The translations under genes were made by a program, and so were the position numbers. Shown here one piece after another: positions 574 to 26,873 of a DNA stretch of 32,432 nucleotides. The notes below the pieces were generated by a model. The model ran no database searches. It saw only the letters and a program-made list of their open reading frames with translations, and had not been told where the DNA came from. How positions within the stretch are numbered: the first letter of the stretch is position 1; each line of letters opens with the position of its first letter. Source of the stretch: a virus; the IMG/VR virus record IMGVR_UViG_3300043468_001598, positions 1-32,432 of that record, one strand, 5' to 3'.

Positions 574-897
574 ATGCAAGTAATGAAGTTGACAGATTTT
601 ACTAGAGGATGGTTCATAGGAAATTTTGACCCTAGTATTTTAAAAACCAAAGATTTCGAAGTTGGCGTTCTCACGCACAAAAAACATGAAGTATGGCCCA
701 GACACTATCATAAAATTGGTACAGAGTATAATGTATTAGTTTCAGGAAGTATGACAGTGGCCAATACCCTTATTGGTCCTGGTGATGTATTTGTGTTTAA
801 TCCCCTGGACGTTGCTGATCCTGTTTTTCATGAAGATTGTATTGTGGTATGCGTAAAGGTACCCAGTATACCTGGAGATAAGTATGAACTTGTTTAA
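574..897 (+). CDS. Small cupin-fold protein
   Basis: A 107-residue protein with a single cupin domain. The first cupin motif is seen as RHYHKIGTEYNVLVSGSMTV (His, His and Glu in metal-ligand positions), followed by GPGDVFVFNPLD, which fits the second turn. Cupins of this size act as isomerases, epimerases or binding proteins in nucleotide-sugar pathways, which suits the neighbouring methyltransferases and glycosyltransferases; the reaction is unknown. It starts one base after the preceding stop (a second ATG follows at 583) and its 3' end overlaps the RuBisCO-like gene by 14 bases, indicating translational coupling. Confidence 0.65.
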   Translation: MQVMKLTDFTRGWFIGNFDPSILKTKDFEVGVLTHKKHEVWPRHYHKIGTEYNVLVSGSMTVANTLIGPGDVFVFNPLDVADPVFHEDCIVVCVKVPSIPGDKYELV

Positions 898-2077
898 AGA
901 AAAGAGTGAAATAGATTCATCCAAATACTTTATAGCTACCTATGCTGCTATTTCAAAAACTACGCTCAAAGAATTGGCCTGGGATATAGCGGTTGGACAA
1001 AGTGTAGGTAACCCCAATGTTAGAAGTAAATGGGAAGACGATGCGTTATTTGAAACACATAGCTGTCTCATCCTAAACAATCAACAAGAGCTTGAAAACA
1101 CTAACCGTGGCATCATAGAGATTGCTTTTCCGGTAGCCAACATAGACCTAGAGACCGACGGCGTTAATCATTTAATCTGTCAGCTCATGGGTGGGCATAC
1201 TGACATAGATATCGTTCAGAGATGCAGGCTCATTGATCTAGACTTGCCCGATTGCATGAAAACAGTTTTCAAAGGACCTAAATTTGGTCTTTCAGGGCTA
1301 AGAAAAATAACTGGTAATTATAACAAGCCCTTGTTGGGCGGCATAATTAAACCTAAAATTGTACATAAGAAACATGTGCTTGAAGATATGGTCAGAGCAC
1401 TCATAGATGGAGGTGTCGATTTCATCAAAGAAGATGAAATCATGAGCAGTGTACCTCATCTTCCTCTGGAGCAACGTGTAGACATAGTTGCCAATCTACT
1501 TGCCAAAGCAAACTATAAGCTGGCCTATTGTCATACCATCAATTGCGATCCGCATGATTTACAAAATCGCATCAACACAGTTGTTGAATTGGGCGGCAAT
1601 GGGGTTCATATCAACATTTTGGGTGGCCTGGGTACGTATCATAGTGTGCGAAAAATGGATGTACCTATTTATATGCATCTGCAAAGTAGTGGTCAAAAGG
1701 TCCTGACTAATATTAATAATCCTTATAGCATAAGCTGGCCTGTGGTCTGCCAACTTGCTACTCTAATGGGAGTAGATACCATACAGACTGGTATGATTGG
1801 TGGATATAGCAATGACGATCCAGCAGAGATTTTAAAATGTTTGAACATTCTCAGAGCAGGCAATACTGTTCCAGCACTTAGTTGTGGGTTTCATCCAGGC
1901 ATGGTAGACTGGGTGACCAAACAGGTAGGTAATGATTATTTGGCCAATAGCGGTAGTGCCATACATGGCCATCCTGGCGGAACTCTGGCCGGCACCAAAG
2001 CCATGCGCCAGGCCATAGACAATGATCACAATACTGAATATGCTGATGCTATTAGGACCTGGGGGCTGGTGCAATAA
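884..2077 (+). CDS. RuBisCO-like protein (form IV-like RLP)
   Basis: A 397-residue homolog of the RuBisCO large subunit. Aligned by eye to plant RbcL, IIKPK holds Lys156 and Lys158 (RbcL K175, K177). GGVDFIKEDE holds Lys182, Asp184 and Glu185 (K201, D203, E204), so the carbamate/Mg triad is intact. His265 fits H294. The carboxylase residues are not kept: R295 aligns with Leu, H327 with Gln301, loop-6 K334 with Tyr308, SGG(379-381) is SCG (333-335), and N123 aligns with Gly. This suggests an enolase, isomerase or decarboxylase-type RLP rather than a CO2-fixing enzyme. Known RLPs act on 2,3-diketo-5-methylthiopentyl-1-phosphate or in acid-sugar catabolism. GGAG stands a few bases before the ATG, and the start overlaps the cupin gene. 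The substrate is unknown; the glycan-gene context hints at a sugar-derived compound (inference). Confidence 0.85.
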   Translation: MNLFKEKSEIDSSKYFIATYAAISKTTLKELAWDIAVGQSVGNPNVRSKWEDDALFETHSCLILNNQQELENTNRGIIEIAFPVANIDLETDGVNHLICQLMGGHTDIDIVQRCRLIDLDLPDCMKTVFKGPKFGLSGLRKITGNYNKPLLGGIIKPKIVHKKHVLEDMVRALIDGGVDFIKEDEIMSSVPHLPLEQRVDIVANLLAKANYKLAYCHTINCDPHDLQNRINTVVELGGNGVHINILGGLGTYHSVRKMDVPIYMHLQSSGQKVLTNINNPYSISWPVVCQLATLMGVDTIQTGMIGGYSNDDPAEILKCLNILRAGNTVPALSCGFHPGMVDWVTKQVGNDYLANSGSAIHGHPGGTLAGTKAMRQAIDNDHNTEYADAIRTWGLVQ

Positions 2078-2079
2078 TC

Positions 2080-2802
2080 ATGCTAAAAGACAGACTAACG
2101 AACTACATCTACAGCGGTCAAGAGAGCGTAGCTAGCCAAAAGATGCTACAGGTTCTGAATCATATTCAGGATCTTGATGTTAAATGTATTTTAGATGTTG
2201 GCAGCTGGCATCTAAAACAAAGCATGGAATTCTTAAATGCTTTTCCTGATGCTCAGGTACATGCCTTTGAACCTGCGCCCGATAATTTCAACCTCTGTAA
2301 AAATACTCACATGTACATGGATCCACAGAACCGGGATCGCTTAAAGGTATACAATGTGGCCTTAGGCGATGTCAATGGAACCATAGATTTTTATGTTATT
2401 GATGACACCAAGGGCGACAGCAACGCAGGTGCTGCCAGTAAGTTTAAATTCAAGCCTGGAATGAATGGCAGTTTTTATAACCAAAATTGGATTCAAAAAC
2501 AAGTAACAGTTAGTCAGTATAGATTAGATGATTTTGTTCCCAAGTACATTAATATGCCTGTGGATATTTTGTGGATTGATGTACAGGGCGCAGAGTTGTT
2601 TGCTTTTAAAGGTGCTGAAAGGACCTTGAAGGATACTAAAATGATTTTTACTGAGGTTGGTCTAGAAGCCTACTACGAAGGTCAGAGTCTTAAACCACAG
2701 ATTGATGAATATTTAAACAGTTTAGGATTCGAAGAAATTAAAGAAGCGTTTGAGCTGAACGGCTTTGCATACGAAGGCAACGCAGTGTATAAAAGAATAT
2801 GA
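2080..2802 (+). CDS. FkbM-family methyltransferase
   Basis: A 240-residue class I SAM methyltransferase. Motif I is CILDVGSWHLKQSMEF with the acidic ribose-binding stretch VHAFEPAPDNF. The FkbM signature is completed by VTVSQYRLDDFV and VDILWIDVQGAELFAFKGAE. FkbM enzymes O-methylate sugars or polyketides, and phage copies usually sit in glycan cassettes. It begins two bases after the RLP stop and its final TGA overlaps the ATG of the next gene (ATGA), so it belongs to the same transcript. Methylation of a host or virion surface sugar is an inference from context. Confidence 0.82.
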   Translation: MLKDRLTNYIYSGQESVASQKMLQVLNHIQDLDVKCILDVGSWHLKQSMEFLNAFPDAQVHAFEPAPDNFNLCKNTHMYMDPQNRDRLKVYNVALGDVNGTIDFYVIDDTKGDSNAGAASKFKFKPGMNGSFYNQNWIQKQVTVSQYRLDDFVPKYINMPVDILWIDVQGAELFAFKGAERTLKDTKMIFTEVGLEAYYEGQSLKPQIDEYLNSLGFEEIKEAFELNGFAYEGNAVYKRI

Positions 2803-3278
2803 AAATTATAGCACACCGAGGCAATACACAGGGCCCTAACACACAAGAAGAAAACTATCCTGATTACATACAAAATGCCATTAGGCTAGGGTTTGATGTA
2901 GAGGTAGATCTTTGGGTACAGGACAACGAACTTTGGTTAGGCCATGATGAACCTACTTATAAAATATATAAAGGTTGGCTCAACGAACGACATAATCGAT
3001 TATGGATACACTGTAAGAACCTAGATGCCCTAGAGTATTGCAGCATGTACAAAGATTTAAATTTCTTTGCGCACGATTCGGATCCCTATGTTGTAACCAG
3101 TAAAGGTTATATTTGGGCCTATCCTGGTCATTATGGTAAAACTGCTACAGTCATGGTCATGCCCGAATATGTGTTTCAGTTAGCACAGGCTACAGCTAGA
3201 TTGCGCACCCACTATGGTATCTGTACAGATTATGCTCAAAGGGTAAAAGATGAAACGGTCAGTAATAATACGAGGTAG
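2799..3278 (+). CDS. GDPD/PI-PLC-like phosphodiesterase-fold protein
   Basis: A 159-residue protein that starts MKIIAHRGNTQGPN, with the HRG signature of glycerophosphodiester phosphodiesterases. GFDVEVDLWVQDNELWLGHDEPTY then supplies the E-x-D metal ligands and the second catalytic His. It is shorter than full-length GDPDs (about 250 residues), so the barrel is minimal or truncated. It overlaps the upstream gene by 4 bases and the downstream gene by 29. Similar small HRG proteins occur among glycosyltransferases in polysaccharide loci, where they may cleave or remodel phosphodiester-linked sugars. Enzymatic activity is not assured. Confidence 0.65.
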   Translation: MKIIAHRGNTQGPNTQEENYPDYIQNAIRLGFDVEVDLWVQDNELWLGHDEPTYKIYKGWLNERHNRLWIHCKNLDALEYCSMYKDLNFFAHDSDPYVVTSKGYIWAYPGHYGKTATVMVMPEYVFQLAQATARLRTHYGICTDYAQRVKDETVSNNTR

Positions 3279-4050
3279 TCTGGGTAACAGTAAAAATCCA
3301 ACTAATTTTACCCAGCAAGTCGTAGACAGCATCAGAAGCTGGCATAATGATGAAATAATACTTAGCACCTGGGAACATCAGTTAGACCAAGCCCGACATA
3401 TACTGGGCATAGACAAGATTATACTTAGCAAAGACCCTGGTCATGATCCTGGCCATACCATGCGTCAATACATTACCTATGAGGCAGGACTCAACGTAGC
3501 TCAAGGTGAACAAATACTAGTAACTCGAACTGACATGCTGCATTTTAGAAATTTGTTTGAATTCATAGGCAGCAATGTGGCTCGTACACCAGAAAACATG
3601 GGGGCATTTACACACAAATTGGTCATAGGCAACATGATGACCATTAGGCCCGATAGTTCAGAGATTGTTAGAACCTTTAGACCCAGTGACTGGTTTCAGT
3701 GCGGTTGGGCTCAGGACATGCGCAAATGGTGCGGCATTGGTCAGGAAATTCGTAGTATAAATTGGAATCTATATGCTGATCTGTATGCCAGACAGCAGAC
3801 CTGTACTGAAAAATTGTGGTTTAGTTTGGTACTGCAGAAGTATTTTAACAATGATCTCACCTGGAATAATACTGCTGAGTTCGATGGGTTAGCCTGGCAT
3901 GCCATTAATGATAACTTTTTAGTTTTAGATAACATAAGTACAGCCCGCACCATGAATCTAAACTGGACATTTCAACCACAAAGATTGCACTGTTACTACA
4001 CAGAAAAACTTTATAACATGAAACTTCAAGAACTATGTACAAGGAATTAA
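3250..4050 (+). CDS. WavE-like lipopolysaccharide-synthesis family protein
   Basis: A 266-residue protein beginning MKRSVIIRGSLGNSKNPTNF, followed by SIRSWHNDEIILSTWEHQL, LSKDPGHDPG and EQILVTRTDMLHF. The early IRG segment, the ST.W stretch and the central R.D mark the WavE family, named for a Vibrio LPS core gene and usually treated as a glycosyltransferase. It overlaps the GDPD-like gene by 29 bases and ends one base before the next gene. A role in sugar transfer onto a surface glycan is likely. The donor and acceptor cannot be read from the sequence. Confidence 0.65.
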   Translation: MKRSVIIRGSLGNSKNPTNFTQQVVDSIRSWHNDEIILSTWEHQLDQARHILGIDKIILSKDPGHDPGHTMRQYITYEAGLNVAQGEQILVTRTDMLHFRNLFEFIGSNVARTPENMGAFTHKLVIGNMMTIRPDSSEIVRTFRPSDWFQCGWAQDMRKWCGIGQEIRSINWNLYADLYARQQTCTEKLWFSLVLQKYFNNDLTWNNTAEFDGLAWHAINDNFLVLDNISTARTMNLNWTFQPQRLHCYYTEKLYNMKLQELCTRN

Positions 4051-4051
4051 C

Positions 4052-5005
4052 ATGAAAGATTTTTTATTTTTTAATTATGATTGGGTAGCAAATAGTACAT
4101 ATTTGTTCAAAAGTTTCGAAGTGTCTGGTTACAGTTGTGATTTTGTAAATGAACAACAACTCCAATCTTTTGTACCACCATCTCAATATAGGGTAGTTGT
4201 TGCTTACCTGCATGAGCCCTGGCAGATTCCCATAATCAACAGGCTCATGTCTATGTACTTTAAGGATAGTTTCTTTGTACAGCATGATGACACTGACGAA
4301 GAACATGTACAACGTTGGTTTGAAAGATCTCCTGACCTAATCATGCAAAGGGAATTGACTGCTGCAAGCCAGAACCCTTATAATTGTCCTACGTACCCGC
4401 AGCATTTTCCCATACCCAGCATATACCGTGACAACAGCGAAAAGACCTTGGATGTGATGTTCATGGGAACGCCAACTAATCCTGGTAGAGTTCGATTTGT
4501 GCAGAAGTTGTTGGAACTTAGTACTGGTCCGCTTAAACATCTTAACTGGGGACTGCAGTATAGCAAAGAAAGAGCCAAGGGACGTAATCCAGATTTGTTT
4601 ATAAAAGCAGCAAATTCAACAAAGATTGGATTGAACTTTCCTGGTAACAGTCGTGATCAATGGAGGACCTGGGAGTTAGCCAGTGCTGGTTGCGCTATAC
4701 TTATGCCCCAGAGTCCACTGCTAAGTATCAGACCCGATCATCAGCCCTTTGAAGAATATGTTAGGTTTAAAGATGATTTGTCTGATCTAGAAGAAAAAAT
4801 TGTTTGGCTTTTGGAAGCAGATAGGTGGAAGGACTGGGGCAATAAGGCCAAACAAAGCTATGATTTATTTCATACACCGGAAAAATGCTTTGAGCACTAT
4901 CATGATTGCGTACTAAGGCATGCTCCGGTTCAGCCACGTACTATCATTCCACATAGTGCTGAAAGCTACTTTGACGCCTGGCGTAAAAACCCTAACAACT
5001 ACTGA
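4052..5005 (+). CDS. CgeB-like glycosyltransferase (GT-B fold)
   Basis: A 317-residue protein. The C-terminal half has LDVMFMGTPTNPGRVRF, then INFPGNSRDQWRTWELASAGCAILMPQ and a late FKDDLSDLEEKIVWLL segment. This layout (small Rossmann start, E-x-x-x-x-G nucleotide-sugar-binding helix, then an acidic helix) matches the CgeB/spore-maturation glycosyltransferase family of GT-B enzymes. The N-terminal half carries YLHEPWQIP and HDDTDEEHV. AAGGA precedes the ATG. It is the last gene of the surface cassette, six bases before the DUF3310-type gene, so the sugar genes and the replication genes may share a transcript. Confidence 0.72.
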   Translation: MKDFLFFNYDWVANSTYLFKSFEVSGYSCDFVNEQQLQSFVPPSQYRVVVAYLHEPWQIPIINRLMSMYFKDSFFVQHDDTDEEHVQRWFERSPDLIMQRELTAASQNPYNCPTYPQHFPIPSIYRDNSEKTLDVMFMGTPTNPGRVRFVQKLLELSTGPLKHLNWGLQYSKERAKGRNPDLFIKAANSTKIGLNFPGNSRDQWRTWELASAGCAILMPQSPLLSIRPDHQPFEEYVRFKDDLSDLEEKIVWLLEADRWKDWGNKAKQSYDLFHTPEKCFEHYHDCVLRHAPVQPRTIIPHSAESYFDAWRKNPNNY

Positions 5006-8151: not shown

Positions 8152-8236
8152 ACTAGCATGCCAGCGAAGGCTAGTAAAATATCCACTGGTGCCAACGCCA
8201 CATGGGTTGGCAATCATCAATCTCGCTTTCGAGGAG
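8152..8236 (+). promoter_or_regulatory. Structured 5' leader of hsp20, candidate RNA thermometer
   Basis: Three hairpins precede the hsp20 start: ACTAGC (8152-8157) with GCTAGT (8170-8175); TGCCAAC (8190-8196) with GTTGGCA (8206-8212); and a weak TCTCG-CTTT-CGAGG hairpin (8221-8234) whose 3' arm includes most of the GAGGAG ribosome site (8231-8236). Small heat-shock genes often carry leaders that hide the ribosome site at low temperature; that role is inferred here. Confidence 0.45.
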
Positions 8237-8243
8237 AACCATT

Positions 8244-8741
8244 ATGACACTTATGCTGAAAAACGGCACTTTCGACATGTTTAAAGACATTGAAAAATTT
8301 TTCGTAGGTTTTGACGACACCTATAATCGCATGGCCAAGTTCCATGACGATGTGACCAAAAATATTCCTAACTATCCTCCGTACAACATCCGCAAGGTCG
8401 AAGATAACCACTATGTTATCGAATTGGCTGTAGCTGGTTTTGCACGACAGGACATAGACATCACCTTTGAGGACAACAAGTTAATCATCAGCGGTAAAAC
8501 CGAAGATGATAACAATAATTTCCTTTTCAAGGGCATTGCCAATCGTGCGTTCACTCGCACCTTCTTCCTGGACGACACCATGGAAATTAATGATGCGTTC
8601 ATGATGAATGGCATGCTTAAGATTGCTCTGGAAAAGATCATCCCCGAGCACAAGAAGCCCAAGAAAATCGCTGTTGCCGATGGTGAAACCAAATCCAAAA
8701 CTAAAAAGACACTGTTGACCGAAGATGATACTAATATCTAA
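8244..8741 (+). CDS. Small heat-shock protein Hsp20 (alpha-crystallin domain)
   Basis: A 165-residue protein of the IbpA/Hsp20 family, common in aquatic T4-like phages. The N-terminal MFKDIEKFFVGFDDTYNRM is followed by the alpha-crystallin domain: YPPYNIRKVEDNHYVIELAV, AGFARQDIDITFEDNKLIISG, AFTRTFFLDD, and the conserved NGMLKIALEKIIPE (the A-x-x-x-n-G-x-L motif). It holds unfolding proteins for refolding, probably during virion assembly. The ATG at 8244 is chosen because GAGGAG lies seven bases upstream; the in-frame ATG at 8202 has no ribosome site and lies in the hairpin leader. The late promoter at 8125 suggests late expression. Confidence 0.9.
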   Translation: MTLMLKNGTFDMFKDIEKFFVGFDDTYNRMAKFHDDVTKNIPNYPPYNIRKVEDNHYVIELAVAGFARQDIDITFEDNKLIISGKTEDDNNNFLFKGIANRAFTRTFFLDDTMEINDAFMMNGMLKIALEKIIPEHKKPKKIAVADGETKSKTKKTLLTEDDTNI

Positions 8742-9516: not shown

Positions 9517-10527
9517 ATGATTAAAACTGCGCTTGTGTATGGTGGTGGCGGATTCATTGGTAGTCATCTGGTTCGTAAACTCAGAGCTGAAAATTACTTC
9601 ATTCGAGTCGTTGATCTAAAAAAACCTGAATTCAGCGATTCTCCGGCCGATGATTTTAAGGTCGGGGATCTTACAAATTACGATCTTGTCAGCCACTCGT
9701 TGGTCTTGCCCGCAGGATTAAACACTGAATTCAATGATTTTGATGAAATCTATCAGCTGGCTGCAGACATGGGCGGAGCAGGTTATATCTTTACTGGCGA
9801 TAATGATAGTGAAGTCATGACCAACAGTGCTGCCATCAACATCAATCTTTGCAAGGCCGTAGCCGAAAGAAATATGGCCAGGGGTAAAGTACATTCACGT
9901 ATTTTTTATAGCAGTAGCGCCTGTATCTACCCCGAACATAATCAAATGGATCCCAACAATCCTAATTGTGTAGAGGATTCAGCCTATCCTGCCAACCCTG
10001 ATAGCGAATATGGTTGGGAAAAACTTTTCAGCGAAAGACTTTTCTTGGCCTATAATCGCAATCACGGCATACCAGTACGCATTGCTCGTTATCACAATGT
10101 ATTTGGTCCCGAAGGCACCTGGACCGGTGGTCGTGAAAAAGCACCCGCAGCCATCTGCAGAAAGGTAGCTGAATGCACCACAGGTACCATAGATGTCTGG
10201 GGCGATGGCGAACAGACACGTAGCTTCATGTACGTAGACGAATGTGTTGAAGGCACGCTCAGACTCATGCGTTCGGACTTTACGGGCCCTGTGAATCTGG
10301 GTAGCACTGAGATGCTAAGCATCAATCAATTAGTTGATATGGTCGCAGGCATTGCTGGCAAATCCATTACCAAAAATCACATTCCAGGACCTTTGGGTGT
10401 CAGGGGTAGGGTCAGCGACAATCGCCTCATCCAGGAAAAACTTGGTTGGGCACCTAGTGCGCCCTTGCAAGCAGGCATGGCCAAAACCTATGAGTGGGTG
10501 CATGAACAAGTTCAACGTGCAAATTGA
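9517..10527 (+). CDS. NAD-dependent epimerase, GDP-mannose 3,5-epimerase-like
   Basis: A 336-residue extended SDR enzyme. The NAD site is YGGGGFIGSHLVRKL near the N terminus. The rest follows plant GDP-mannose 3,5-epimerase (GME) closely: YQLAADMGGAGYI, FYSSSACIYPE (substrate-proton Cys), EYGWEKLF (catalytic Tyr and Lys), NVFGPEGTWTGGREKAPAA, WGDGEQTRSFMYVDECVEG, and HIPGPLGVRGRVSDN. GME converts GDP-D-mannose to GDP-L-galactose and GDP-L-gulose, so the phage may supply an unusual sugar nucleotide for its surface-glycan cassette (inference). AAGGAG precedes the ATG. The 3' end overlaps the next gene by 26 bases. Confidence 0.88.
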   Translation: MIKTALVYGGGGFIGSHLVRKLRAENYFIRVVDLKKPEFSDSPADDFKVGDLTNYDLVSHSLVLPAGLNTEFNDFDEIYQLAADMGGAGYIFTGDNDSEVMTNSAAININLCKAVAERNMARGKVHSRIFYSSSACIYPEHNQMDPNNPNCVEDSAYPANPDSEYGWEKLFSERLFLAYNRNHGIPVRIARYHNVFGPEGTWTGGREKAPAAICRKVAECTTGTIDVWGDGEQTRSFMYVDECVEGTLRLMRSDFTGPVNLGSTEMLSINQLVDMVAGIAGKSITKNHIPGPLGVRGRVSDNRLIQEKLGWAPSAPLQAGMAKTYEWVHEQVQRAN

Positions 10528-10975: not shown

Positions 10976-11983
10976 ATGAAAAAATTACTTGCAATTTTAC
11001 TTTTCCCTTTGTTTTCATTAGCTCATGCTGCTGAGATAACTGGTGCAGGTGCTACCTTTCCCTACCCCATCTATGCCAAATGGGCCGAAGCATATAACAA
11101 GGCCACCGGCAATACCCTTAACTATCAGAGTATAGGTAGTTCAGGTGGCATTCGTCAAATCAATAATAAAACAGTTACTTTTGGTGCGTCAGATGCTCCA
11201 GTTAAAGGAGAGGATCTTGATAAACTTGGACAAGTTCAATTCCCTGCTATCATCGGTGGCACAGTGCCTGTTATCAATCTTGATGGCTTCAAGGCAGGTG
11301 AACTTCGCATCACAGGACCTGTACTTGCCGAAGTGTTCATGGGCAACATAACCAAATGGAACGATGATAAACTTGTTAAACTTAATCCTGGGAAATCCCT
11401 CCCCAACACCAATATTACAGTGGTTCATAGAGCTGATGGATCTGGTACTACTTTTAATTGGACTGATTATCTCACTAGTGTTAGCCCAGAATGGGAGAAA
11501 CGAGTTGGACGAGGAGCAGCAGTAAAATGGCCTGCTACCAGTTCAGTGGGTGGTAAAGGTAACGAAGGTGTTGCTGCCAATGTAAATAGAATTAAGGGTA
11601 GTATAGGCTACGTAGAATATGCTTATGTGAAAAAGAACCTAATGAACTACATGAAACTACAAAACAAATCAGGTAACTTCGTCGACCCAGATGATGCGAC
11701 ATTTGCTGCAGCAGCGGCAGGTGCAGACTGGTTCAGCGTGCCAGGCATGGGGCTGAGCATCGTAAATCAGGGCGGCAAAGATACCTGGCCCGTTACTACA
11801 GCCAGTTTCATCATCATGTACAAGGAACCTGCAGACAAAAAAGCAAGCTCTGAAGTCATAAAGTTTTTTGATTGGGCATTCAAGAATGGTGCCAAGCTAA
11901 GTGTCGAACTAGACTATGTTCATTTACCAGATAAACTACAGGCTGACATTCGTAGTCGCGTCTGGAGTCAGATCAAAAATTAA
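10976..11983 (+). CDS. pstS: Phosphate ABC transporter substrate-binding protein PstS
   Basis: A 335-residue periplasmic phosphate-binding protein. It has a signal peptide (MKKLLAILLFPLFSLAHAA, cleaved before EITGAGATFP). Phosphate-site segments are GAGATFPYPIYAKW, YQSIGSSGGIRQI, FGASDAPV and HRADGSGTTFNWTDYL, followed by GNEGVAANV and GSIGYVEYAY. PstS is a known auxiliary gene of aquatic phages and raises phosphate uptake by the infected cell, feeding phage DNA synthesis. GAGGAA lies upstream of the ATG. No pstC, pstA or pstB is present, so it must work with the host permease. Confidence 0.95.
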   Translation: MKKLLAILLFPLFSLAHAAEITGAGATFPYPIYAKWAEAYNKATGNTLNYQSIGSSGGIRQINNKTVTFGASDAPVKGEDLDKLGQVQFPAIIGGTVPVINLDGFKAGELRITGPVLAEVFMGNITKWNDDKLVKLNPGKSLPNTNITVVHRADGSGTTFNWTDYLTSVSPEWEKRVGRGAAVKWPATSSVGGKGNEGVAANVNRIKGSIGYVEYAYVKKNLMNYMKLQNKSGNFVDPDDATFAAAAAGADWFSVPGMGLSIVNQGGKDTWPVTTASFIIMYKEPADKKASSEVIKFFDWAFKNGAKLSVELDYVHLPDKLQADIRSRVWSQIKN

Positions 11984-13186: not shown

Positions 13187-13320
13187 TGTACACTCGCAGT
13201 CCGAAGGATAGTTTTTTGAGATTCATGCAAAATGCCTATGCCGATACCAATCTAACTCTAGCAGAGATTGTTGTGTTGGTCTTATGCGTAATTTTGGGGA
13301 TATATTATGTCTTTGTCTAA
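13186..13320 (+). CDS. Hypothetical 44-residue membrane peptide
   Basis: The ATG shares its A with the CCA end of tRNA-Phe, and the ribosome site AGGAGGGA lies in the tRNA's T- and acceptor-stems. The protein begins MYTRSPKDSFLRFMQNAYAD and ends in one transmembrane helix (LAEIVVLVLCVILGIYYVFV). Its stop overlaps the GGQ-factor start by 14 bases. Mature tRNA and translation of this peptide would compete for the same RNA. Confidence 0.5.
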   Translation: MYTRSPKDSFLRFMQNAYADTNLTLAEIVVLVLCVILGIYYVFV

Positions 13321-13732
13321 AGAACCATTCTTCAGCATAACAGCTCGTGATTGTGAGTGGAGTTATACCCGGGGCACCGGTGCCGGTGGACAGAAGCGCA
13401 ACAAGACCAGTTCCGCTGTCCATTGCATTCACAAGGCATCCGGAGCCCACGGATATAGCGAAAGCAGCAGAAGTCAGCTTGACAATCGGAAAGATGCCTT
13501 TAAAAAGATGGCCGAGACCGATAAGTTTAAACGATGGATTCACATTGAATACATGAAGCGAACCGGAGAGTATTTAGAAGCCGAAAGACAGTTGGAAAAA
13601 AGCTTGACAAAAGTTCGTCTAGAGGTTAAAATAGATGGACGATGGACAGAAGTGCGAGCCGACCAGCTTGTAGATGATCCAGATAATTTTGATTTTAGTT
13701 TCCTAGAGGAGAGTCCAGATGGGCAGCGATAA
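13307..13732 (+). CDS. GGQ peptide-release-factor-like protein
   Basis: A 141-residue class I release-factor catalytic domain. It contains RGTGAGGQKRNKTSSAVHCI (catalytic GGQ near residue 28) and the downstream S.SSRSQLDNRKDAFKKM segment of RF domain 3. It lacks the codon-reading domain 2, so it resembles stalled-ribosome rescue factors (ArfB/YaeJ, also about 140 residues). Its C terminus is acidic (DDPDNFDFSFLEESPD), unlike the basic tail with which ArfB enters empty mRNA channels. Hydrolysis of peptidyl-tRNA on the ribosome is likely. It lies between tRNA-Phe and tRNA-Lys and contains a promoter at 13604 for the following tRNA genes. Confidence 0.82.
   Translation: MSLSKEPFFSITARDCEWSYTRGTGAGGQKRNKTSSAVHCIHKASGAHGYSESSRSQLDNRKDAFKKMAETDKFKRWIHIEYMKRTGEYLEAERQLEKSLTKVRLEVKIDGRWTEVRADQLVDDPDNFDFSFLEESPDGQR
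13604..13632 (+). promoter_or_regulatory. Sigma70 promoter inside the GGQ-factor gene
   Basis: TTGACA, 17-base spacer, TAAAAT, embedded in the coding sequence and preceded by AGC like the other cluster promoters. It would drive tRNA-Lys and the genes after it. Confidence 0.6.
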
Positions 13733-17976: not shown

Positions 17977-18051
17977 TGGGAATTAGCTCAGCGGTAGAGC
18001 AACGCCCTTACAAGGCGAAGGTCCACAGTTCGATCCTGTGATTCCCAACCA
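17977..18051 (+). tRNA. tRNA-Val(UAC)
   Basis: Acceptor TGGGAAT/ATTCCCA, D-arm GCTC...GAGC, anticodon loop CTTACAA, T-arm CACAG-TTCGATC-CTGTG, ACCA encoded. Confidence 0.92.
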
Positions 18052-18073
18052 AATGATGAAAGAGGAGATCATC

Positions 18074-18628
18074 ATGCCAGTGCTTGCCCTAGATGTTTCA
18101 GGTACACCACGACAGTGGATCAGCAACGAAGATGCCATTAGCTATCAGGCCACCGACAGCGTAGCCTGGAGCATGGGCGATGTCGTTGTTCGCTACAGAG
18201 GTGGTACTCAAAGGACCGGCACCAAAAGCTATCTAGAGTGTGCAAGCATCATAGCCATCAAGGGGCATGGGTTCAATCCACACAAGCATGCCAAGGTAGC
18301 TTTGAGCAATCGAACCTTATTTGGTCGTGACCGAATGATGTGCGCATACTGTGGTACGCAGCATGCCAGTGCCGGCAAATTAAGCCGTGACCACATTGTG
18401 CCACGCAGCCGTGGCGGCTCCGATGCCTGGATGAATGTTGTAACGGCTTGTCGTAGTTGCAACAGCAAAAAAGACAACTTGACCCTCAAAGAAAGTGGCA
18501 TGGAGTTGCTGTACGTACCCTATGTGCCTAACCATTTTGAGAACATGATACTTCAGAATAGAAATATTCTTACCGATCAAATGGATTACCTGATGTCTGG
18601 TGTACCCAGACACAGTAGACTGCTTTAG
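18074..18628 (+). CDS. HNH endonuclease
   Basis: A 184-residue protein. The start at 18074 (MPVLALDVSGTPRQW) is chosen because GAGGAG lies seven bases upstream; in-frame ATGs at 18038 and 18053 overlap or abut tRNA-Val. The C-terminal half has the McrA-type HNH signature: CAYCGTQHASAG, LSRDHIVPRSRGGSDAWMNV and ACRSCNSKKDNLT, with two CxxC zinc pairs and the DH catalytic motif. The N-terminal 90 residues resemble those of other stand-alone phage HNH proteins. It may be a homing-type nuclease associated with this tRNA cluster, which would fit its mosaic build. Its stop codon TAG supplies the first G of tRNA-Thr(UGU). Confidence 0.85.
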   Translation: MPVLALDVSGTPRQWISNEDAISYQATDSVAWSMGDVVVRYRGGTQRTGTKSYLECASIIAIKGHGFNPHKHAKVALSNRTLFGRDRMMCAYCGTQHASAGKLSRDHIVPRSRGGSDAWMNVVTACRSCNSKKDNLTLKESGMELLYVPYVPNHFENMILQNRNILTDQMDYLMSGVPRHSRLL

Positions 18629-20268: not shown

Positions 20269-20276
20269 TATTTATG
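20269..20276 (-). promoter_or_regulatory. Late-type promoter for the leftward membrane operon
   Basis: The minus strand reads CATAAATA, one mismatch from TATAAATA, about 30 bases before the start at 20241. It overlaps the ATG of the divergent cyclase gene. Confidence 0.5.
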
Positions 20277-21506
20277 GAAACCAAATTAGCAACCATAGTT
20301 TGTAGCGATGTCATTGGCTACAGTAGTTTGATGCAGGCCGACGAAGAAGGCACGCTTCGTCGCCTGGATGCCTGTCGTGCCATCATAGATGGTTTAATTA
20401 GCGAACACAAGGGCAGATTGTTTAATACTGGCGGCGACAGCATCTTAGTGGAGTTTGCCAGCTCCGTAGACGCCGTGCGGTTCAGCATAGCCATGCAAGA
20501 ACACATGCGCAAACTCAACAATGGCATGCGTTGGCGCATAGGCATGCACATGGGTGAGGTATGGATCTATGGAACCAATCTCATGGGCGACGCAGTCAAC
20601 CTAGCAGCTCGCACCGAAAGTCTAGCCGACTATGGTGGGGTGACCATGACCAGCGAAGTTCATAAACTGGTAGCTTCCAAGATAAAAGATCAGAAATTCA
20701 TCAGCCGTGGCATGCAGGAATTCAAGAATGTTGCTCCCATGGAAATCTGGAGCATTGACATACCGGGTGCAGAACCCAATCCACATCTAGCCAAAGCAAC
20801 AAAACGTCCCGAAGTAACTTCAACCAAGAGTCATGCTGAATTGATAGCCGCAGTTGTCAACGATCAAGCAGCACGAAACCGAAATATCAACGATGCTCTT
20901 GCATTCAAACAAGATGGCAAGATGGGTCCAGCTACTCGCATACTCATGTGGCGTGTGAGTAAACGAGACATGCAGGCCCTGGATGAACTCATAAGCATGA
21001 GTCAAAAAAATCTAGTACCCACAGAACTCAAGCCCTATGTGTATGCAGTATTCAAAGAATTTTGCAACAAAATAACCAGTGATCTGGCTCTTAAGATTGT
21101 AGACATTGTAGAGAATGATAGTCGCAGTCTTGCCATGCAGTTTCTCAAACAAGCTGCCAAGGTCAATGAACAGGCCAGCTATAAACTAGCCATGATGGTT
21201 TTCACAGATCCGCATAGCAGTTCTACCGAAATCGATGGCGTCATAGGTGACTTAAAAGAAAGCGCCATGAAGCGCCGAGTACCGGCCATGATGAGTTTGG
21301 GCAAGTACTACATGCAGATTGGTGACAAGAAAAATGCTTTTAGATGGCTCTATGCTGCTCGTGCCGAGCACGATAAAGAAGCACAGAATTTGCTGGAATC
21401 ATTGAACAAGACCATTAGCAAAAGCGATTTCAATAACTACAAGACCGATGGTGATGCATTGGTGGATGAAATTAAATTCATTGATGAAAATAGGATGCGA
21501 CAATGA
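20274..21506 (+). CDS. Class III adenylate/guanylate cyclase with C-terminal Sel1-like region
   Basis: A 410-residue protein whose first 170 residues form a class III cyclase domain. TIVCSDVIGYSSLM holds metal Asp12; RLFNTGGDSILVEF holds metal Asp55; RIGMHMGEVW is the central strand; GDAVNLAARTESLA holds the transition-state Asn109 and Arg113. By eye the purine-specifying Lys and Asp positions are Asn51 and Gly100, so ATP, GTP or pyrimidine preference cannot be predicted. Residues 190-410 are helical with Sel1/TPR-like patterning (AMMSLGKYYMQIGDKKNAFRW). No membrane helix is present, so it is cytoplasmic. No ribosome site is seen before the ATG. It would raise a cyclic nucleotide in the infected cell. 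The 3' end overlaps a membrane gene by 4 bases. Confidence 0.88.
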   Translation: METKLATIVCSDVIGYSSLMQADEEGTLRRLDACRAIIDGLISEHKGRLFNTGGDSILVEFASSVDAVRFSIAMQEHMRKLNNGMRWRIGMHMGEVWIYGTNLMGDAVNLAARTESLADYGGVTMTSEVHKLVASKIKDQKFISRGMQEFKNVAPMEIWSIDIPGAEPNPHLAKATKRPEVTSTKSHAELIAAVVNDQAARNRNINDALAFKQDGKMGPATRILMWRVSKRDMQALDELISMSQKNLVPTELKPYVYAVFKEFCNKITSDLALKIVDIVENDSRSLAMQFLKQAAKVNEQASYKLAMMVFTDPHSSSTEIDGVIGDLKESAMKRRVPAMMSLGKYYMQIGDKKNAFRWLYAARAEHDKEAQNLLESLNKTISKSDFNNYKTDGDALVDEIKFIDENRMRQ

Positions 21507-22920: not shown

Positions 22921-25422
22921 TTATTTCCTATACTGAGAATCTACCATTTCTTGATGCAACCTATCACTCGCTAATTGTCTCAAAGCTCTAACATTGTCTA
23001 CGGTCTTCTGGTTACGATATATTTCTCGTGGTGCATAGAAATTTGCATCCGTCAATGCCACCATATAGGCATTGAAACCAACAGGAGTTCTAGCAATATT
23101 AGCAATAGAAACACCAGCGGCTGCATCGTTGTCCTGAACATTGCTTTTTACCTGTTGTGTGTTGGTGCTTTTTTGTTCCTGATCAGAAACGGCTTGTTTG
23201 CTGTCTATGATTTCATTGATGGGGTTGGTTCGATCTGTGGTAAAATTAGTTGCGGTTAATGGAATGTCGGCTGTGATTACGGGGACTATTACGGTTGGCA
23301 CGTTATTGTTTGATTGGCCTGTGATGACCTGTGCTTGTGGTTGTAAAACATTAATTTGTAGGGCGCCAATATTGACTTGTTGATCGTTTTGAATTGTGTT
23401 TGTTTGAGTTTCGAATGGGCTTTGTTGTAGCGGTGGTTGATATGCAGCAACGGATGCTGTTGTAGTCTGAGATACTGCTGAACTTTGCAGAGGATTAAAT
23501 TCTCTTAATATTTGAACGGGCGTTACAGCCATGGCATTGAATTGCACAACTGCGCTGGTGCTTGTACTAGCTGCTGTTGTAGATGCAGTCTGTTCGTTAT
23601 CCATGCTTGTAGATTGAATATTGCGTTGCTGAATGGCCTGAGTCACTACGCTGACAGAACCCTGAGTGGGTCCTAAAGTTACAGAGGCATCTGATCTAGC
23701 AGCAGTCAAGTTATTTTCCGTGTGTGTTTCTGTTTGAATTTGTTGATTCTGACTTCTTGTAACCGCATCAAGAGCTAGACTTTCTGCTTGACGCATGCTA
23801 GCTGTTGCAATAGAAGCAGCATTTTGAATTGCACCTTGACTGGCCTGATTGGCCGTGGCCGCTTCTCGCTGCTGGTTGTTTCTTATGAGGCTAAGTGCTG
23901 CATTGGTTGAGTCCTGTGAGTCTAAACGAAGACCCGGTCTTGACGCTCCCGAAGTTGGGCTCATGGCATCACCAACCAAAGCAGTTGATGTTGCAGCAGT
24001 AGAGGTTTTGGTGTTAGTAACTGGCAAAGTACTGTTAGGAGTTTCTGTGGTCACAGTGACCGTTGGATTGGTTGTCGTGGCATCTATTATGGTTGTAGTG
24101 ACAGTGCTTGTAGGCGTTGTACTTATGCTGGCTACTGTTATCGCCAGCTGCGCATCCTGTAGAGCTTTTTGTTCGGCTGCCAATCTTTTGATTTCTGCAT
24201 TAAAGTTGCTGCAATTAGGACTATACAATGGTTGGCTGAAACATGGGTCAGGTGTCCAAATAGGTCTAGTCCAACCAACCCAACCAAAATGATTCCAAAC
24301 ATCACTAGTCCACCACTGTATTGAACCCATGTCTAGACTGTTGATGTTTTCAGTGAACAAGTGTCTATTACTATAACTACCACCCGAATTGTTACCAGCA
24401 ACATACCATTGATTTTGAAACAAGGTGGTATTGTTTTTATCGCTAATTCTAAAGTTAATATTGCCACCACCATTAGATCGCCAATCGGTACACCAGAACA
24501 TGAATGTATTATAACAGGCTCCATAGTTCCACCAATTGAAGCCATAATCATAGCCATGGAGGATAACACCTCCACCTATGTGAGGCAGAGACTGTGCTAT
24601 ATTATAACTATAATAAAACGCAGGACTTTTAGATCCTTGTAGTATGTTTTGAAATCCCGGGCAGCTAGGATTGAATGCTGGATTGAGTATACAAGGGTCA
24701 ACACTATAGTTTAATCTCATATAAGCATCTTTTATCTGAGGACCATAGCAGTCTGGATTGCAGCCCCAAAATCCAGCATCCATACCTGTTATACTTAGTT
24801 TAGCTGAACCCAGTAAATTTATACCTCTAGGACTAGAGAAAGTATATGTTTCAGCTAATTGTTGCCATGTTGGATTATACGCTGGATTACCATCATTTAT
24901 ATTTTTTAACCCTAATTGGTAAGTAGCTGTATAATCCACAGTATTATCAGACTTATATGCAGTAAATGTTGCATGTAGAGTATCTTGAGGACCATTCAGA
25001 TCACTACAGTCGTTGCCAGCTTCAACTAAATTTTTTACACCGCCTATTTGATTAGCACACTGAAATCTATACTTGAACCCATACATGATGCTAGTAGCAA
25101 ATACAGCACTTGTATTTTGATAACCAAAGTTTATAGCATTTAAGTTTATATTTTGCTCTGTAGTACTAGATGTATAACTAAAAATATAACCATCTGGTGT
25201 ATAAGAACCAGTCATCCCTGAAGTAGTCCAACCAGTTCCTGATGTCATTGTAGGATTTTGTATAAGATTCCCGGTTGTGCTATCAATACTATAGCCACTT
25301 GGTGTATTAGGTGAAGTCTGAGCATATACTGCACCTACTAGCAGGACCAAGGCCAAGAGTATGGCTATGCCAAAACCCTTGGTCCAACGATACTCATAAT
25401 GCTTATGGTTAAAGTCGTCCAT
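22921..25422 (-). CDS. Large secreted protein with Cys-rich and Ser/Thr/Gln-rich regions
   Basis: An 833-residue protein. A long N-region is followed by a hydrophobic signal or anchor (GIAILLALVLLVGAVYAQ) ending in a plausible cleavage site. Residues 40-240 look like a beta-sandwich (LIQNPTMTSGTGWTTSGMTG, ISDKNNTT-type strands). Two motifs of the form DPC...NPxxNPSC (DPCILNPAFNPSCPGF and DPCFSQPLYSPNCSNF) frame a Trp/Tyr-rich domain. A coiled coil (EIKRLAAEQKALQDAQ), a 300-residue Ser/Thr/Gln/Asn-rich low-complexity stretch and a conserved-looking tail (TPVGFNAYMVALTDANFYAP) follow. Its ATG overlaps the upstream stop (TAATG). A secreted or virion-surface role is inferred. Confidence 0.7.
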   Translation of the reverse strand: MDDFNHKHYEYRWTKGFGIAILLALVLLVGAVYAQTSPNTPSGYSIDSTTGNLIQNPTMTSGTGWTTSGMTGSYTPDGYIFSYTSSTTEQNINLNAINFGYQNTSAVFATSIMYGFKYRFQCANQIGGVKNLVEAGNDCSDLNGPQDTLHATFTAYKSDNTVDYTATYQLGLKNINDGNPAYNPTWQQLAETYTFSSPRGINLLGSAKLSITGMDAGFWGCNPDCYGPQIKDAYMRLNYSVDPCILNPAFNPSCPGFQNILQGSKSPAFYYSYNIAQSLPHIGGGVILHGYDYGFNWWNYGACYNTFMFWCTDWRSNGGGNINFRISDKNNTTLFQNQWYVAGNNSGGSYSNRHLFTENINSLDMGSIQWWTSDVWNHFGWVGWTRPIWTPDPCFSQPLYSPNCSNFNAEIKRLAAEQKALQDAQLAITVASISTTPTSTVTTTIIDATTTNPTVTVTTETPNSTLPVTNTKTSTAATSTALVGDAMSPTSGASRPGLRLDSQDSTNAALSLIRNNQQREAATANQASQGAIQNAASIATASMRQAESLALDAVTRSQNQQIQTETHTENNLTAARSDASVTLGPTQGSVSVVTQAIQQRNIQSTSMDNEQTASTTAASTSTSAVVQFNAMAVTPVQILREFNPLQSSAVSQTTTASVAAYQPPLQQSPFETQTNTIQNDQQVNIGALQINVLQPQAQVITGQSNNNVPTVIVPVITADIPLTATNFTTDRTNPINEIIDSKQAVSDQEQKSTNTQQVKSNVQDNDAAAGVSIANIARTPVGFNAYMVALTDANFYAPREIYRNQKTVDNVRALRQLASDRLHQEMVDSQYRK

Positions 25423-26873
25423 TATCTAAAAGCGCTGGCTGAATATTTTACTGGATCCATCTTGGGAACTTCACTTTCGGTTTTATAATCGTATTTGGGA
25501 ATCTTATGTGGATTGGCTGCCCAAAGTTCGCGAGCACGTTCGCCAATTTGACCTTCATAGGGGCAAGGTGTACCAGCTGCCATCATGGCTTCAAACACTC
25601 TGCGATCCTGGCACATGGTGGCAACAGCAGCAACCTTCATGCCCATGTCATATAGGGTTTTGCTCAACTTTAACCGTTCGCAGTTTAAATCACGACCAGT
25701 ACCACCCAAGGCCATGCCAAACATTTGTGTTTGTATGGCACCAGATTGACCTGTAGTACACAGATCCTGGCCGCCACCGCTCATCATGGCTGGCGCTATG
25801 GCCGTAGGTGGAGGCTGAATGACTCTTTGAGTAATTGTAGTTTCATTGATATTTCTATTGGTCATGTCACCGGTCTGAATGTTCTGATTAACAGCGGTGC
25901 TGGAGTTGATGTTGGTATTTTGATTGTTGGATGCTGATATAGATGTTGAATTGTTGATGTTGCGATTGGTCATGTCACCGGTCTGAATGTTGTTATTTGT
26001 ATTGGTTGTATTTGCAGTTGTCTGATTGATGTTACGGTTGGTCATGTCCCCGGTCTGAATGTTGTTATTTGTATTGACAGCCGTACTATTGCTTTGGTTT
26101 ACATTGTTGTTATTGTAGTTCATGGTACCAGTATTGATGTTCTCATTTTTATTCAGACTAGTACTGGTATTGATGTTGTTGTTAGTACTGGTGCTGGTAC
26201 TGGTATTGATGTTGCGGTTGGTCATGTCACCAGTCTGAATGTTGTTGTTGGTGTTTACACTGGTGCTGGTGTTGACGTTATTGTTGTTGTAGGTAACCGA
26301 ACCACTCATGATGTTGCGATTGGTATTGTCGCTTGTACTGGTATTTTGATTGATGTTGGTTATGCTGCCACTTTGAATGTTTTGGTTAACATTGGTGTTG
26401 GTATTGTTGCTGGTACTTGTGCTGGCATTGACATTGTTGTTGTTAAATGTCTGAGTACCGGAATTTATGTTGTTGTTGGTATATGTAACCGAACCACTCA
26501 TGTTGTTGTTATTGTTGTTGGTTACTGTACCGCTCTGAACATTGTTGTTGGTGTTGACATTGGTACTAGTGCTGGTACTAGTATTCACATTGTTATTGTT
26601 GTTGGTGCTGGTACTGTTCACCGTTGAGAGATTGGTGTTGGTACTAGTGCTGGTACTGACATTGTTGGTAGTAACCGAGCTGGTGCTGTTGCTTGTGGAA
26701 TTAGTATCAACCAGACTTTTGGAATCGTAGGTTCCTTGGTTGATGAGTGTGGTGTTGTTGGTAGTTGTGCCGTTGGTTGTACTTGTGGTACTAGAATTGG
26801 TCGTTTGCGCGTTGGCACCCAAGGTTGTGAACATAACAAGACATGCGCAGATTGCAGCGATAACTGCACGCAT
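25422..26873 (-). CDS. Secreted Asn/Thr-rich repeat protein (curli- or beta-solenoid-like)
   Basis: A 483-residue protein with a clear signal peptide (MRAVIAAICACLVMFTTLG..ANA, then QTTN). Residues 25-350 are almost only Asn, Thr, Ser, Ile, Val and Gly and contain at least ten degenerate repeats built on NNNIQTGDMTNRNIN (four near-identical copies) and variants such as NIQSGSITNINQN and IMSGSVTYNNNNV, about 25-30 residues apart. Such regular Asn/Thr ladders are typical of amyloid-like or beta-solenoid fibres. The C-terminal 120 residues are ordinary and Cys-containing (KVAAVATMCQDRRVFEAMMA, AGTPCPYEGQIG). AAGGAA precedes the ATG; it is the first gene of the leftward operon. Confidence 0.75.
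   Translation of the reverse strand: MRAVIAAICACLVMFTTLGANAQTTNSSTTSTTNGTTTNNTTLINQGTYDSKSLVDTNSTSNSTSSVTTNNVSTSTSTNTNLSTVNSTSTNNNNNVNTSTSTSTNVNTNNNVQSGTVTNNNNNNMSGSVTYTNNNINSGTQTFNNNNVNASTSTSNNTNTNVNQNIQSGSITNINQNTSTSDNTNRNIMSGSVTYNNNNVNTSTSVNTNNNIQTGDMTNRNINTSTSTSTNNNINTSTSLNKNENINTGTMNYNNNNVNQSNSTAVNTNNNIQTGDMTNRNINQTTANTTNTNNNIQTGDMTNRNINNSTSISASNNQNTNINSSTAVNQNIQTGDMTNRNINETTITQRVIQPPPTAIAPAMMSGGGQDLCTTGQSGAIQTQMFGMALGGTGRDLNCERLKLSKTLYDMGMKVAAVATMCQDRRVFEAMMAAGTPCPYEGQIGERARELWAANPHKIPKYDYKTESEVPKMDPVKYSASAFR
25848..26640 (-). repeat. Tandem coding repeats in the Asn/Thr-rich gene
   Basis: On the plus strand the unit appears as ATTGGTCATGTCACCGGTCT and close variants near 25858, 25970, 26038 and 26218, embedded in long GTTGTTGTT-type runs. 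Near-identity at the DNA level suggests recent duplication or recombination within the gene. Confidence 0.75.

Follow-up and report, generated by a model that had tools for sequence, protein, structure and literature searches.

A RuBisCO-like protein of uncultured aquatic phages, encoded in a nucleotide-sugar gene module and possibly acting in glycan decoration

The window analysed here is the whole stretch of 32,432 nucleotides of the IMG/VR virus record IMGVR_UViG_3300043468_001598, a contig with T4-like replication genes (clamp, phrog_223; DNA polymerase, phrog_262; UvsX). The gene for a RuBisCO-like protein (RLP; 884–2077, 397 amino acids) is located near its left end, and all genes of the surrounding glycan cassette lie on the forward strand. 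The contig edge cuts the 5′ end of a Methyltransf_24 family methyltransferase (1–572; PF13578, E = 6e-12), which is followed by a small cupin of 107 amino acids (574–897; family alignment A3, phrog_24762) overlapping the start of the RLP gene by 14 bases. Downstream of the RLP are an FkbM-family methyltransferase (2080–2802; PF05050, E = 4.6e-24), a short GDPD-like protein (2799–3278), a WavE-like LPS synthesis protein (3250–4050; PF07507, E = 2.7e-12) and a glycosyltransferase-like protein of the Glyco_trans_1_2 family (4052–5005; PF13524, E = 2.9e-6). The first-pass annotation of this DNA had named a cupin, two methyltransferases and sugar-transfer genes as the immediate partners; Pfam bears out the methyltransferases, WavE and the glycosyltransferase-like protein, and weak matches bear out the cupin.

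Two further genes were recognised. The protein encoded at 2799–3278 is shorter than known GDPDs and keeps their signature residues (HRG, EN, E-x-D and GHD). It matches the profile of the GDPD 7e0v (E = 1.4e-4) and phrog_34507; the AlphaFold model has a pLDDT of 95.7, and its leading Foldseek matches are mostly GDPDs (TMq about 0.4–0.6). A nucleotidyltransferase (NTase) gene is situated just outside the left end of the window, as seen on an overlapping contig, L003, with the order NTase, methyltransferase, cupin, RLP, FkbM, GDPD-like, WavE, glycosyltransferase. The DNA of L003 is identical over positions 1–900 of the window and thus comes from the same or a near-identical virus; L003 was therefore rejected as an independent relative and used solely for the left flank missing from the window.

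Elsewhere on the forward strand, an Hsp20-family small heat shock protein (8202–8741; PF00011) adjoins the replication genes, and an NAD-dependent nucleotide-sugar epimerase/dehydratase (9517–10527; PF01370, phrog_540) stands apart from the glycan cassette. A phage PstS phosphate-binding protein is encoded at 10976–11983 (394 bits; NCBIfam cut-off 339). The segment 12838–18857 holds 24 predicted tRNA genes among small ORFs, which include an RF-1 domain protein (13307–13732) and an HNH endonuclease (18038–18628). A 410-residue protein with an adenylate/guanylate cyclase catalytic domain (20274–21506; PF00211, E = 4.9e-10) is unexpected in a T4-like phage contig. On the reverse strand, 22921–26873 encodes two large proteins with no Pfam match, one of which (483 residues) is extremely rich in Asn/Thr/Ser repeats.

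The RLP gene is an intact ORF with an ATG start and encodes a complete two-domain RuBisCO fold. The product matches PF00016 with E = 3.8e-32 (112 bits; cut-off 30.1 bits) and the AlphaFold model, which covers both RuBisCO domains, is confident (pLDDT 92.9, pTM 0.92), in agreement with the original assignment as a RuBisCO relative. The top structural match in Foldseek is the CABP-bound type III RuBisCO 3a12 (TMq 0.88–0.90, 23% identity); the MtnW structure 2oem gives a TMq of 0.84. Matches were obtained to the NCBIfam models of RuBisCO, MtnW and OiaX alike, with every score at or below 38% of the model's own cut-off. The best is the type III RuBisCO model (158 bits, cut-off 497); the two MtnW models give 127.4 bits (cut-off 513.6) and 155.8 bits (cut-off 409), and the OiaX model 133 bits (cut-off 700).

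The active site was mapped by sequence (form I numbering) in 65 family members, 37–63% identical to the query, with the region around H294 and R295 being the least certain part of the alignment. K175, K177, K201, D203, E204, S379, G381 and G403 are retained in 65 of 65. In the query, K175 and K177 correspond to K156-P157-K158 (1349–1357), and the metal and carbamate triad K201/D203/E204 (Lys182, Asp184 and Glu185) is carried by F180-IKEDEI-M187 (1421–1444), all eight residues of which are invariant. The retention of these five residues, claimed from the query only, thus extends to the whole family. Four positions are changed in all members: N123 to Gly, H294 to Gln, K334 to Tyr and G380 to Cys. 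Tyr308 (1805–1807) takes the place of the loop-6 lysine K334, and Gln267 that of H294, which is conserved in every other form sampled. R295 is Ser268 in the query; 64 of the 65 members have Lys or Ser here. The E60/T65/W66 motif of RuBisCO is replaced by G38-QSVGNPNV-R47 (995–1024), in which G38, Q39, S40, G42, N43, P44 and R47 are invariant, giving the family signature G-Q-S-x-G-N-P-x-x-R. The first-pass annotation had listed loop-6 Lys, R295 and H327 as replaced and the P-loops as altered. The first two hold family-wide; H327 is Gln301 in the query, but the family is divided between Gln (36 members) and His (29). In the P-loops, G380 is Cys (Cys334 in the query) in all 65, but G404 is changed to Ser in the query member only. 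The changes at H294, N123 and the E60/T65/W66 segment were absent from that list.

The protein is an RLP (form IV in the broad sense), with a RuBisCO fold and the Lys/Asp/Glu triad and with the carboxylation residues lost. By analogy with RuBisCO chemistry, the residue pattern fits metal-assisted enolisation with no addition of CO2; enolisation is plausible and carboxylation is not. Given the change of H294 to Gln, the enolisation step may differ too. K177 is present in the RLP family and in forms I–III and absent from every other form IV sequence sampled, being Met in MtnW (2oek) and Ala in OiaX. K334 is Lys in OiaX.

A tree was built from 19 members of the RLP clade and 28 references. The family forms a single clade (support 100/100) whose stem measures 1.8 changes per site, and forms I, II, II/III and III cluster (100/97) to the exclusion of the RLP clade. 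The first-pass annotation had held that a position firmly inside a carboxylating clade would speak against its reading; the tree places the family outside forms I–III, and its view of a non-carboxylating RLP is sustained by this position and by the residue losses. Its suggestion of a new RLP clade stands in part: the family is a clade of its own against the references used, a set that lacks DeepYkr and IV-GOS sequences. The structure 2qyg was dropped as a DeepYkr reference; it is IV-Photo-like. The IV-Photo sequences (L153 and L175, of the 1tel/2qyg type) form a separate clade (100/100) within a group of other form IV sequences (98/97), and the RLP does not group with them. OiaX also groups elsewhere, with strong support. 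MtnW sits on a long branch of unsure placement, and the deep position of the RLP clade relative to the other form IV groups is unsettled in the tree.

These data bear on the possibility that the gene is an auxiliary metabolic RuBisCO fixing CO2 for the host. The PF00016 score above cut-off would agree with it, and one paper reports an active viral RbcL from soils (PMC12615777). Against this, Tyr at K334 and Gln at H294 occur in 65 of 65 members, R295 and the E60/T65/W66 segment are lost, and forms I–III cluster without the RLP clade. Carboxylating RuBisCO was rejected as the identity of the protein by residues and tree, and we regard CO2 fixation as highly improbable.

The RLP belongs to a conserved gene module. 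Among distinct RLP-seeded loci, the NTase is found in 68 of 71, the GDPD-like gene in 57 and the cupin in 48; unbiased clustering of the ORFs around the RLP gives the same three families (78, 64 and 53 of 84 loci, respectively). The usual order is NTase-cupin-RLP-GDPD. The NTase profile matches the NDP-sugar pyrophosphorylase 4evw (E = 1.7e-36) and heptose-pathway proteins. The recurrence of this module in many contigs ties the RLP to glycan and nucleotide-sugar genes and lends support to the glycan role proposed in the first-pass annotation. A single clade (SH-aLRT 98) unites the NTases of RLP loci, the long-branch L085 excepted, and is separate from the NTases associated with a phosphomannomutase (PMM)-type protein described below. 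Distances between RLPs correlate with those between the NTases (Mantel r = 0.60, p = 0.0005) and also track those of the cupin and the GDPD; the GDPD genes are more mixed between RLP and PMM loci (six label changes). Such joint inheritance of slot gene and NTase is what one would expect of an enzyme that delivers its product to the next, although as few as one or two evolutionary switches may lie behind it.

In phages lacking the RLP, the slot between cupin and GDPD is taken by a PMM-type HAD protein (PF03332), with the DxD Asp pair invariant. A search seeded with the cupin, and hence independent of the RLP, gave 65 distinct loci, with the RLP in 50, PMM in 12, neither in 3 and both in none. 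Over all 150 distinct loci from the cupin, PMM and RLP seeds, the RLP was present in 114 and PMM in 33, again never together (a single PMM sequence as seed gave 10 loci, the PMM alignment 36). Loss of the RLP in relatives that keep the cassette, which had been put forward as a sign against a functional link, does therefore occur, but a PMM-type HAD fills the slot; this is replacement rather than plain loss, and strengthens the functional reading. The exclusivity may reflect one or a few evolutionary switches rather than many independent events.

Other arrangements involve further enzymes. In the cyanophages Bellamy (a Synechococcus phage) and SynMITS9220M01, the NTase carries a fused RpiB-type aldose-ketose isomerase domain, recognised in Bellamy as PF02502 ribose/galactose isomerase (E = 3.9e-32) and in SynMITS9220M01 by similarity; a HAD gene and a weakly PfkB-like gene are nearby. 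The record annotation of these fusions (L259:5835-6992 and L260:4832-5989) is merely ‘phosphatase’. On bacterial plasmids, cupin and NTase are neighbours in loci for surface polysaccharides, together with WavE, a flippase, an ABC exporter or an O-antigen ligase. The plasmids of Roseinatronobacter, Ruegeria and P. alcaligenes carry an additional HAD protein, read as β-phosphoglucomutase (β-PGM)-like, and those of Roseinatronobacter and Ruegeria also a GDPD match. The cupin match on an Acetobacter plasmid is in no surface-polysaccharide context. The slot appears to hold an enzyme supplying phosphosugar to the NTase. PMM and β-PGM-like HAD enzymes move or remove phosphate. We know of no RLP that does so, and the sharing of the slot by RLP and PMM is consequently no proof of an identical reaction. 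As the NTases differ between the RLP and PMM variants, the sugar may differ as well.

It could be argued that the RLP is non-catalytic cargo, such as a protein with a binding or regulatory role riding in a glycan island, as several RuBisCO active-site residues are missing. We consider this very unlikely, since the triad and K175/K177 are invariant in spite of 37–63% identity to the query, the slot is otherwise occupied by enzyme families and the gene is maintained across very many contigs.

The RLP clade is common to many uncultured water-dwelling phages and is largely viral. Relatives occur in 167 IMG/VR stretches by query peptides and in up to 332 by profile; both counts include redundancy, and the larger may also take in other RuBisCO homologues. 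No match was found among 50,697 phage isolate records at 1e-5. Among 84,980 species genomes, three contigs match by the octapeptide FIKEDEIM, which is invariant in the clade, and a sampling of 981 genomes from three phyla for cellular relatives returned only these three; other hits score as canonical RuBisCO or other RLPs. One of the three, L085 from a ‘Sphingobacteriales’ MAG, was rejected as a cellular member, the contig reading by eye as phage-like (ssDNA-binding-like, ribonucleotide reductase and PhoH-like genes). The Patescibacteria contig looks cellular by eye, with Obg, ComM-like, DprA-like and YraN-like genes alongside; this chromosome carries all four module genes among glycosyltransferases. 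In a Pelagibacter single-cell contig (L083:107-2008), the NTase-RLP pair directly adjoins Mrp- and HflK/HflC-like genes, apparently on a SAR11 chromosome as judged by eye. Both cellular RLPs nest among viral sequences in the tree, which suggests that they were acquired from phages.

We propose that the RLP has no carboxylase activity and instead supplies the adjoining NTase with a phosphorylated sugar, in a four-gene core (NTase, cupin, RLP, GDPD-like) serving glycan decoration; we put the probability of this at about one half. Lys182 would be carbamylated and Mg2+ held with the help of Asp184 and Glu185, while Lys156 and Lys158 would assist. A keto-sugar phosphate would be converted to an enediolate in the active site. 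With E60, N123, H294, R295 and the loop-6 lysine gone, the enediolate would be predicted to be reprotonated elsewhere rather than carboxylated, yielding an isomer or epimer. The NTase would then activate the resulting phosphosugar with a nucleotide, and the surrounding glycosyltransferases and methyltransferases would attach and methylate this putative sugar on a surface glycan of host or virion. Isomerisation or epimerisation is favoured because aldose-ketose isomerase chemistry is possible for an RLP and because there is a precedent, the RLP of R. rubrum being a sugar-phosphate isomerase whose product goes to a cupin-type sulfurylase (PMC4958253).

The main chemical alternative is decarboxylation or enolisation: the RLP would act on a sugar-acid or keto-sugar phosphate as a decarboxylase, hydrolase or enolase, similar to the apionate enzymes but used for a glycan precursor. 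Other RLPs are annotated as 3-oxo-isoapionate-4-phosphate decarboxylases, the corresponding model matches at 133 bits, and C–C cleavage is still compatible with the loss of the residues for CO2 addition. The score is nevertheless far under the OiaX cut-off of 700 bits, the protein lies outside the OiaX clade, and K177 and K334 (Ala and Lys in OiaX) are Lys and Tyr here. In the phage loci we recognised no four-carbon acid sugar kinase, a neighbour of several related RLPs. We regard this alternative as doubtful.

A role with methylthio compounds had also been suggested, in which the RLP would be an MtnW-like enolase or a DeepYkr-like 5-methylthioribulose-1-phosphate isomerase of methionine/MTA salvage, with the cupin as dioxygenase or methylsulfurylase partner. 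The pairing of RLP and cupin in R. rubrum (PMC4958253) and the significant scores to the MtnW models point this way. These scores are, however, far under both cut-offs, and K177 is kept in place of the Met of MtnW. The cupin is not specific to the RLP, as it persists in PMM modules and cellular polysaccharide loci; the structure matches of its profile at an E-value threshold of 0.1 include no named methylsulfurylase, and none of the genes near the RLP was recognised as a salvage gene. Methionine salvage is thus unlikely, and this part of the first-pass annotation is not upheld.

To our knowledge, the functions established for RLPs are methionine salvage and sugar-acid breakdown. If true, the preparation of a phosphosugar by the phage RLP would extend what the RuBisCO family is known to do, in chemistry and in biology, to glycan building, with a testable operon, and one step of a phage sugar pathway would be open to unrelated enzymes (RLP, PMM-type HAD and perhaps the cyanophage isomerase fusion). 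We tentatively suggest that this largely viral clade is the first RuBisCO-family enzyme for nucleotide-sugar and surface-glycan synthesis, replacing a PMM-type enzyme with a remodelled site (H294 to Gln, loop-6 Lys to Tyr), and that it may account for orphan marine RLPs. Viral ‘rbcL’ genes called as carbon fixation by family models may be such enzymes, as the RLP scores almost fourfold over the Pfam cut-off with the carboxylation residues missing.

RuBisCO-type genes in viral contigs have been reported (PMC8506154, PMC12615777, PMC12607003 and PMC13390420). In their accessible parts, these papers mostly read them as carbon fixation, one with an ‘RbcL-like’ placement, and describe neither this module nor these residue losses. 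No report of an RLP with polysaccharide biosynthesis, of apionate RLPs or of this gene combination in phages was found in the open-licence literature, which is weak evidence of novelty. The phage RLP comes closest to type III RuBisCO (3a12, 8dht), both in structure (TMq about 0.89) and among the NCBIfam models, but lacks the loop-6 Lys, H294 and R295 and lies outside the carboxylating clade. With the form IV RLPs (MtnW 2oek/2oem; IV-Photo 1tel and 2qyg; apionate OiaX), it shares the two-domain fold, K201/D203/E204, K175 and changed carboxylation residues. Unlike them, it forms a long-stemmed clade of its own with K177 kept, H294 changed to Gln, K334 to Tyr and the G-Q-S-x-G-N-P-x-x-R segment, and it sits in phages inside nucleotide-sugar modules. 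The R. rubrum DeepYkr RLP with its cupin sulfurylase is likened to it by description, for the pairing with a cupin and the putative sugar-phosphate isomerisation; its context is methionine salvage, whereas the phage cupin also occurs without an RLP. The GOS study found 58–65 ocean RuBisCO homologues outside all known groups (PMC1821046). These homologues (IV-GOS clade) are marine and owner-less, with changes at N123 and H327; the phage RLPs are candidate members, likened by description, and phages carrying them could be the owners. The NTase-cupin-PMM-GDPD modules of other aquatic phages have the same NTase, cupin and GDPD-like families in the same order, with the PMM-type protein instead of the RLP, and the plasmid GDPD-HAD-NTase-cupin sets share the NTase and cupin families, with the β-PGM-like HAD in its stead.
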